From positions 2,045,141 through 2,109,140 of the forward strand of contig OX638324.1 of NCBI GenBank assembly GCA_951812825.1: a stretch of DNA of 64,000 bases, given 5' to 3'. Positions within the stretch are counted from its first letter, which is position 1; the number at the start of each line of letters is the position of its first letter. Below the pieces are notes generated by a model. That model did no database searches and had not been told where the DNA came from. It saw nothing but the letters and a program-made list of their open reading frames with translations. Shown here piece after piece: positions 32,867 to 35,537 of this stretch. The stretch comes from an uncultured Dehalococcoidia bacterium. GTDB lineage: Bacteria; Chloroflexota; Dehalococcoidia; Lucifugimonadales; GCA-2712585. A program made the position numbers and the translations under genes.

Positions 32867-34531
32867 ATGAATTGGTCCATGAGTAGCCGTCGGAACATCA
32901 TTCTCACCGGCTTTTCTGGTACTGGCAAGTCGAGGGTTGCCGCCGAGGTTGCGCGCATTCTGGGGTGGGAACTGGCGGACACGGACGCGGATATCGTCCG
33001 GCGGGAGGGGAAGGAGATTGGGGAGATTTTTTCTGAGAAGGGGGAGGAGTTCTTTCGTCTTTTGGAGAAAGAAGCGCTGATCAGGGCTTGTGATGCTGAA
33101 GGACGGGTTGTTGCCACCGGCGGTGGAGTGCTGATGGATGCGGACAACCGGCGTCTGCTCTTCGACAGCGGACTGGTAGTGGGGCTGGAGGCCCGGCCGG
33201 AGACGATCTACCAGCGGTTGTCTACGGAAGGGCAGGGCAGGTCTCCGGAGGAGCGCCCCATGCTGGCGGGGGATGATCCTCTCGCCAGAATACGCAGCCT
33301 GAAAGCGGAACGGCAACCCTTCTACTCGCTGGCCCAGTGGGTTGTGCAGACGGATGATTTGAGCGAAGGGCAGGTGGCGGCTGAGGTGGTGAGGGCGTGG
33401 CAGATGTTGGGAGGGCGCATGGATTCCTCCGGTGACGGCGACCCGGAGTTGGCGGCGGTGGTTACTCATTCCAGGGGAAGCTGTCCCATCAGGGTTGGAT
33501 GGGGGCTGCTGGACCGGATTGGCGAGGGATTTCGGGCATCGGGAATTGACGGTCCGGTGTATATCATTACGGATGACAACGTGTTTCCCCTCTACGGGAG
33601 GCAGGCGCAGCGTTCCCTGCAGCGTGCGGAGATAGAGGCCCATTGCTTCATCATTCCGGCGGGGGAGGAGAGCAAGTCCTGGGAGATGGCGAACGCCATC
33701 TATCACTGGCTGGCGAGTCGACGGGCGGAGCGACGGCATACGATTCTGGCCGTGGGCGGTGGTGTGGTGGGAGACCTGGCGGGTTTCGTGGCGGCTACTT
33801 ATCTGAGGGGGATGCCCTTTGTCCAGGCGCCCACGAGCATGGCGGCGATGGTGGATGCCTCCATAGGAGGAAAGACGGCGGTGAACCTGCCGGAGGCGAA
33901 GAACCTGGTGGGGGCTTTCTACCAGCCGCAGATGGTGCTGGCGGACCCTCATACGCTGACGACTCTGGGTCGAAGGGAGTTATCGGAGGGGTGGGCGGAG
34001 GCCATCAAGCATGGGTTCATCATGGATGCGGACCTGGTTTCCGTGTTCGAAGACCACGCATCCGAGCTAATGGGACTGGAGCCGGAGCTATCCACGGAGG
34101 TTATCAGGAGGAGCATGGCCATCAAGGCAGAAGTTGTCTCGCAGGACGAGCGGGAGACTCTGGGCAAGCGGGTGCTGCTTAACTACGGACATACCATTGG
34201 CCACGCCATTGAGGCTACCACCGGATACGGCGACTGGATGCACGGGGAGGGGGTGTCGGTGGGGATGATGGGTGCGGCGGAGCTGAGCCGGCGGATGGGG
34301 ATGATAGACGGGGACGTGGTGAGACGTCAGGGAGAGCTCTTGCGGCGTTTTAATCTGCCTTTGAAGGCTGAAGGTTTGGACGTGGAGCAGATCTTCTCGG
34401 CGATGTCTTTGGACAAGAAGTCGACGGGGGGAGCGATTCGGTGGGTGCTGCTGGAGGAGGTGGGGAGAGCGACGACCAGTCGGGACGTTCCTCCGGAGCA
34501 GGTGCGCGAGGTGGTGGAAGGGCTGCTGTAG
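32867..34531 (+). CDS. aroKB: Fused shikimate kinase / 3-dehydroquinate synthase
   Basis: Residues 1-175 are shikimate kinase, with P-loop TGFSGTGKS, the DTDADIVRREGKEI Asp, and ATGGGVLMD. Residues 190-554 are 3-dehydroquinate synthase, with VGGGVVGDLAGFVAATYLRG, IGGKTAVNLPEAKNLVG and the zinc ligands in NYGHTIGHAIE. The fusion joins steps two and five of the shikimate pathway. Both domains keep their key residues. aroA, aroD/Q and DAHP synthase are not in this window. Confidence 0.95.
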   Translation: MNWSMSSRRNIILTGFSGTGKSRVAAEVARILGWELADTDADIVRREGKEIGEIFSEKGEEFFRLLEKEALIRACDAEGRVVATGGGVLMDADNRRLLFDSGLVVGLEARPETIYQRLSTEGQGRSPEERPMLAGDDPLARIRSLKAERQPFYSLAQWVVQTDDLSEGQVAAEVVRAWQMLGGRMDSSGDGDPELAAVVTHSRGSCPIRVGWGLLDRIGEGFRASGIDGPVYIITDDNVFPLYGRQAQRSLQRAEIEAHCFIIPAGEESKSWEMANAIYHWLASRRAERRHTILAVGGGVVGDLAGFVAATYLRGMPFVQAPTSMAAMVDASIGGKTAVNLPEAKNLVGAFYQPQMVLADPHTLTTLGRRELSEGWAEAIKHGFIMDADLVSVFEDHASELMGLEPELSTEVIRRSMAIKAEVVSQDERETLGKRVLLNYGHTIGHAIEATTGYGDWMHGEGVSVGMMGAAELSRRMGMIDGDVVRRQGELLRRFNLPLKAEGLDVEQIFSAMSLDKKSTGGAIRWVLLEEVGRATTSRDVPPEQVREVVEGLL

Positions 34532-34560
34532 GAGTGCCGGCGGTCAGGGGCTAGTTTGGG

Positions 34561-35370
34561 CTAGCCGGTGACCTTTTCTATGAGGTACTGGACGGAACCT
34601 TTAGGGACGATGACCTGTACCTCCTCGCCTGCCTGCCGGTTCATAAGGGCCTTGCCGACGGGAGACTCGCTGGAGATCTTGCCATCCACGGGATTGGCTT
34701 CGCGAGGATGCACGACCAGGTAGGAGAACTTGCGGCCGTTACTTGTGGTCTTCAGGATCACTTTCTTGCCGATAGCCACTCGCTGGATCTTCCTTGTTGA
34801 GTCGCCTCCGGTGATGACGGCGGAACTGAGGGTCTGCTCCAACTCTCGAATTCGGGATTCTACGAGGCCCTGTCGCTCCTTGGCGGCGTCAAGAGGGGCA
34901 TTTTCTCGGAAGTCCTTGTCTGCCATGGCGCGACCAATATCGCCGACGACTCTGGTGCGTTCGGCCTTGAGGGTTTCCAGCTGTTCCGTGAGCTGCTTGA
35001 AGCCCTCCTGGGTGAGTTCTGCAACGTCCGGTGCGGCCCTCTGGCTTCTGGCGATTCTGGCGAGGGCCTTGTTCTTGGGCACTCGGGCGTGGGTAGCAAG
35101 GCTGACCTTGACCAGTTCTTCGTTCTTGAGATAGGTGAGGAACTTCTTGACAGGGTCCAGTTTCTTGGCGACGTCACCGCCACTGCGGCCCAACCACTCG
35201 CAGTAGGAAGCCACGGTTTGTGGGGTAAGGCCGCTAATGGGGCCGGAACTGCCACACCAACGTACGAATCTGTTGAGGTCCTGGGAGATACCCTTCTTTC
35301 TGTTTGCCTTGAGTCCGCTTACGTACTGGCTATAAGCCTTATTGAGGGGCAGGTCCGTAACTTGTGCCAC
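34561..35370 (-). CDS. GreA-type transcript cleavage factor fused to an integrase-like SAM core-binding domain
   Basis: Residues about 125-269 are a GreA/GreB protein: a coiled coil (QLTEQLETLKAERTRVVGD), the acidic DFRENAPLDAAKERQG tip, and the C-terminal FKBP-like domain ending SPVGKALMNRQAGEEVQV. Residues 8-100 instead match the N-terminal SAM-like DNA-binding domain of tyrosine recombinases: YSQYVSGLKANRKK, SGLTPQTVASYCEWLG, then KKFLTYLKNEELV. The catalytic recombinase domain is absent. The usual GreA is about 158 residues. The GTG start follows AAGGAG. The factor probably rescues backtracked RNA polymerase, with the extra domain giving DNA or protein contact. Confidence 0.88.
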   Translation of the reverse strand: MAQVTDLPLNKAYSQYVSGLKANRKKGISQDLNRFVRWCGSSGPISGLTPQTVASYCEWLGRSGGDVAKKLDPVKKFLTYLKNEELVKVSLATHARVPKNKALARIARSQRAAPDVAELTQEGFKQLTEQLETLKAERTRVVGDIGRAMADKDFRENAPLDAAKERQGLVESRIRELEQTLSSAVITGGDSTRKIQRVAIGKKVILKTTSNGRKFSYLVVHPREANPVDGKISSESPVGKALMNRQAGEEVQVIVPKGSVQYLIEKVTG

Positions 35371-35537
35371 GTAGTTTCTAACTCCTTCGCGATTTCTCTA
35401 TTTGAGGGTCATGGGGTGGACGCCATACTCAGCACTTCCGTTAGGCTATGCATACTTCGTTGCTTAGCATACCAATTAATGGAGGTGTTGGCAAAGGGAA
35501 CTTTGAGGGGCGAATGGTAAAGTTGTTCCAGCTTTAG

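Follow-up and report, generated by a model that had tools for sequence, protein, structure and literature searches.

A class-wide GreA variant of Dehalococcoidia carries an integrase-type core-binding domain and keeps both tip acids, at least one of which is lost from accompanying stand-alone GreA copies

We found that a gene in the 64,000-nt stretch of DNA analysed here (the window), from an uncultured Dehalococcoidia bacterium, encodes a GreA transcript cleavage factor with an integrase-type core-binding domain (CBD) at its N-terminus, and that such fusions keep both cleavage acids of the GreA tip, whereas the stand-alone GreA copies in fusion-bearing genomes have lost at least one of them. 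This difference between the two kinds of GreA was absent from the initial annotation of the sequence, which had pointed out the fusion itself as one not known to be described. For the open-access literature this holds, as we did not find a description of a CBD-GreA fusion there (in noisy lists, the term 'GreA' also matching 'great'); the genes themselves sit in public genomes under the name 'GreA'. The protein is thus apparently an undescribed variant of GreA that extends across a bacterial class.

The fusion gene occupies positions 34561..35370 of the window on the minus strand, where it had been placed initially, and encodes 269 amino acids (CBD, linker and GreA), read from a GTG start codon with the motif AAGGAG 11 nt upstream. 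A promoter-like site (35466..35494, minus strand) lies ~95 nt upstream of the start; it reads TTGCCA-17-TATGCT, its second hexamer preceded by TG, and is a consensus match only (1 found versus 0.4 expected). Conservation of the domain pair in ~100 relatives ruled out both a spurious ORF and an error of assembly. With gene names assigned by sequence inspection, the fusion gene is flanked by a convergent aroK-aroB, whose end is at 34531, and by a 230-aa ORF with gyrA beyond it. In the former, shikimate kinase and 3-dehydroquinate synthase apparently form one fused ORF (32867-34531, plus strand). An inverted repeat (GGCTAG-TTTGGG-CTAGCC; 34545-34570) lies between the convergent genes and overlaps the stop codon of the fusion, and is a possible shared terminator of both. 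When a conserved operon partner was sought as a hint of function, aroKB and gyrA proved common to near relatives only, and no neighbour kept a constant position throughout the fusion family.

The CBD, an integrase-type SAM-like domain, spans residues 7-100 (35071..35352, minus strand), with model helices at residues 9-19, 22-39, 50-63 and 67-83, and is followed by a linker of low model confidence (residues 101-116; 35023..35070, minus strand), which is disordered in the predicted model at residues 102-112 (pLDDT under 50). The similarity to integrases is weak in a single sequence and significant in an alignment: a search with the N-terminal 110 residues left the integrase SAM-like families below cut-off (Phage_int_SAM_4, E = 0.013; XerD model, E = 0.0014), whereas a profile built from 28 relatives matched the integrase CBD of PDB 3nrw at E = 1.4e-6. 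Profile-profile comparison of the fusion CBD with Xer CBDs from the same order gave E = 2.6e-9 (probability 96%), as against a best E of 0.059 among 30 column-shuffled Xer profiles used as a control, and neither the Xer catalytic domain nor GreA gave a match to the CBD. The CBD profile also finds an Xer protein in the genome of one relative (G010; E = 2.4e-5), and no other further CBD copy was found in the genomes of 12 relatives.

Structure prediction for the CBD alone (mean pLDDT 74) produced a model that superimposes on 3nrw with a Z-score of 13.2 (1.9 Å over 95 residues), on XerD with 11.0 and on the CB domain of lambda Int with 10.7, and nearly all of its best 46 structure matches are recombinase CBDs or their relatives. 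The fold match alone would be insufficient, because helical bundles can reach a Z-score of 13 by accident; joined by the profile result it is convincing, and by these two lines of evidence the N-terminal domain is a CBD of the tyrosine-recombinase family, with a predicted four-helix fold. The earlier assignment of the first ~100 residues to the SAM-like core-binding domain of XerC-type integrases is thereby borne out, as is its remark that the integrase catalytic domain is missing: no integrase catalytic family, with its R-K-H-R-Y residues, matched the fusion, of which residues 117-268 are GreA.

This GreA part is complete, and includes the acidic tip region that had been read in it initially. 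The N-terminal coiled coil (residues 119-186; 34813..35016, minus strand; model helices 121-150 and 158-183) matches GreA_GreB_N (PF03449) with E = 5.8e-19 and 68.5 bits (cut-off 24.5), the C-terminal globular domain (residues 196-268; 34567..34785, minus strand) matches GreA_GreB (PF01272) with E = 2.5e-20 and 72.7 bits (cut-off 26.9), and the predicted fold resembles both E. coli GreA (1grj) and Thermus Gfh1. The NCBIfam equivalog and subfamily models, in contrast, score below their curated cut-offs (NF001263, 135 versus 145 bits; TIGR01462, 124.8 versus 139 bits), so that the fusion's GreA is, as judged by its sequence, a divergent GreA subfamily. At the tip of the coiled coil (ADKDFRENAP, residues 150-159; 34894..34923, minus strand), D153 and E156 correspond to D41 and E44 of E. 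coli GreA.

GreA requires D41 and E44 at its tip, and an E. coli GreA carrying D41A and E44Y is without antipause activity (PMC7527559). Both acids are invariant among the fusions (98/98 aligned, and 116/116 with later ones added). Most fusion-bearing genomes, this one included, also have a stand-alone GreA, and in stand-alone copies taken from ~60 Chloroflexota genomes the tip was intact in 0/39 fusion-bearing genomes (one misaligned case aside) versus 12/20 genomes without the fusion, some of the latter being partly sampled or incomplete. The difference gives p between 1e-7 and 1e-6 (Fisher), a value that overstates the case, both for that reason and because the genomes compared are not independent by descent. 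The same pattern does recur, however, in six fusion-bearing genomes outside Dehalococcoidia; copies in which D41 is kept and E44 is changed to D number 6 in fusion-bearing genomes and 4 in others. The stand-alone copy of the present genome (L001, G000:C1:2389443-2389929, minus strand) lies outside the window at ~2.389 Mb and has the degenerate tip GGTVDNAEYDEAK, in which GGTVDNAEY shows D41 changed to G and E44 to D, making it a candidate Gfh1-like factor. In a class member without the fusion (G045, locus L238), two stand-alone GreA genes lie side by side, with the tips GDITDSAQY and GDITDDSGQY.

Because the fusions keep the acids and the accompanying stand-alone copies have lost at least one, we infer that cleavage in these bacteria probably falls to the fusion, and that the stand-alone copy in fusion-bearing genomes is most likely a Gfh1-like remnant. 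The reverse assignment, with the stand-alone GreA as main cleavage factor and the fusion as an accessory regulator, could draw on the wide presence of the stand-alone copy, but it is disfavoured and we regard it as very improbable: the altered tip of L001, the lack of an intact stand-alone tip next to an always intact fusion tip in the sampled genomes, and the complete genomes of one family (at least 8, small and in single contigs), where no protein other than the fusion has a GreA C-terminal domain, all speak against it.

Full-length matches to the fusion occur in 123/148 sampled Dehalococcoidia genomes, and in 23 of ~216 sampled genomes of other Chloroflexota classes (22 listed, plus G344). 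The initial annotation had counted an architecture standard for the phylum against its own reading, and this applies in part: the architecture is standard for Dehalococcoidia but patchy in the other classes. Beyond Chloroflexota, the evidence is a scan for the pattern in 84,980 species, which returned 77 relatives, 76 of them from records that are apparently Chloroflexota and the remaining one an ordinary GreA. In a GreA tree, all fusions share one side with the Thermus outgroup (95/94), opposite the stand-alone copies, once the G344 protein is counted as a fusion, and the joining branch has only moderate support (94/69). A second, independent origin had been suggested by the placement of two fusions (L160 and L163) beside an apparently stand-alone protein (L211), and was dropped when L211 also proved to be a fusion; the sequences are therefore compatible with a single origin.

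Annotated start sites can hide the CBD. Acetylation of K17 has been reported for the GreA of D. mccartyi, cbdbA743 (PMC7918482), and in three sequences that are likely from this species (L145, L146 and L149) residue 17 is a lysine only when translation is read from an internal ATG, the canonical GreA start. The long reading has no lysine at position 17, and the idea that the acetylated residue marks the CBD was accordingly rejected. Since K17 fits the internal start only, the annotated cbdbA743 probably omits the CBD.

The CBD of the window's lineage has a net charge of +9 (mostly +2 to +7 in the main group of fusions), with +4 on each of helices B and D; the positive charge lies on these helices and on the tail, as in integrases, where these are the sites of DNA contact. 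Helix D has a mean charge of +2.7 in the main fusion group versus +2.8 in Xer proteins of the same order, and in XerH it is the N-terminal domain that inserts into the major groove and makes most base contacts (PMC5241119). Together with the Lys-rich tail MPKAKKVTKKRPSKKASEV that stands in place of the CBD on a fusion-type GreA (L233, genome G118), these features favour a DNA tether, and contact between CBD and DNA is likely for the window's lineage. It cannot be general, because 27/98 fusions have acidic CBDs (net charge -2 to -17, helix D near 0), and the loss of the Xer helix B motif (below) also speaks against a tether. Fusion-type GreA also persists without a CBD in two lineages of the sample, G118 and G117, where the domain is thus dispensable; the G117 protein (L232), from a 1.2 Mb genome, has no N-terminal domain or basic tail at all. 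Three proteins of one genus (L234, L235 and L236) have a long acidic stretch in front of the CBD, which itself contains insertions. Given the acidic subgroup and the two losses, the 'DNA clamp' proposed in the initial annotation is plausible in the window's lineage, though unproven, and is contradicted as a rule for the family, and none of our results points to the replisome or to the transcription conflicts with which it had been linked.

The acidic subgroup leaves some room for a CBD that contacts protein rather than DNA (RNA polymerase near the mouth of the secondary channel, another factor or the CBD itself) and so gates or anchors a GreA that is still a cleavage factor. Such a role would also fit the loss of the S..T...Y motif of Xer helix B, which is not conserved in the fusions, and the nature of the conserved core residues (F35, W38, G40, Y56, F77, L78 and L91), which are mainly of the fold type, so that residues for DNA contact are not the most conserved. 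Against the integrase-like distribution of charge in the window's lineage and the lysine-rich substitute in G118, we consider a protein-contacting CBD unlikely, although it is the strongest of the alternatives. A CBD that is merely the passive leftover of a gene-fusion accident, retained by chance on a protein that works as any GreA, could account for the natural losses and for a sequence that diverges more across the fusions than that of the GreA part. We hold this to be improbable, as the domain has been kept across Dehalococcoidia and in several further classes, its fold positions conserved, and the losses in the sample are only two.

The reading that we prefer, at a probability of roughly 0.6 as a whole, takes the fusion as the cleavage factor, with its CBD on DNA in this lineage, and the stand-alone GreA as having handed over its activity. 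Early in Chloroflexota, an ancestral GreA would have gained the CBD of a tyrosine-recombinase-family protein on a flexible linker. In the window's lineage the CBD would most likely touch DNA beside the polymerase through basic helices B and D, and might thereby keep more of the factor close to transcribed DNA or stabilize it at arrested complexes. Once the fusion provided cleavage, the acids of the stand-alone GreA could be lost, and this copy probably turned into a channel binder of the Gfh1 kind or was itself lost. Of all this, the architecture, the homology of both parts, the distribution and the fate of the tip residues are computational results, and cleavage activity, DNA contact and the role of the second copy are inferences. 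A bolder statement, that cleavage throughout the class now belongs to a GreA held on DNA by a captured integrase CBD, the ordinary copy having turned inhibitor or been lost, is tentative, and we rate it somewhat short of an even chance.

Gre factors are usually seen as free proteins of two domains, in competition for the secondary channel, and to our knowledge no DNA-anchored cleavage factor is known for any RNA polymerase. The fusion is a Gre factor with a possible DNA anchor in dehalogenating (Dehalococcoides) and deep-ocean (SAR202) bacteria, and offers a natural system in which to ask whether a tether alters the rescue of arrested polymerase. It also points to the likely transfer of an important activity between paralogues, which can be read in the tip residues.

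Compared with GreA and GreB (PF03449 plus PF01272; 1grj), the fusion shares the complete coiled coil, the globular domain, the equivalents of D41 and E44 and the fold, and differs in the ~110 extra residues at its front that form the CBD and in its tip, DKDFRENAPL rather than sequences like GDLSENAEY. With XerC/XerD, lambda Int CB and 3nrw the CBD shares the four-helix fold, profile-level similarity and a basic helix D; unlike XerC/XerD and lambda Int, the fusion has no catalytic domain, has lost the helix B motif and is coupled to GreA instead. A precedent for integrase folds used without recombination is provided by the regulators MrpR and YopR (Z about 8 to the CBD), which are larger integrase-like phage proteins and are not joined to a polymerase factor. 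Gfh1 of Thermus and Rv3788 of Mycobacterium are Gre paralogues that inhibit RNA polymerase, and have in common with the stand-alone L001 a Gre scaffold with an altered tip. Gfh1 keeps several tip acids, and its inhibition was shown by biochemistry (PMC4598747), whereas the likeness of L001 to it is one of sequence. A similar division of labour, in which one paralogue cleaves and the other has lost cleavage, is described for the archaeal TFS4, a cleavage-factor paralogue turned inhibitor (PMC5715097), which belongs to an unrelated, TFIIS-like protein family.
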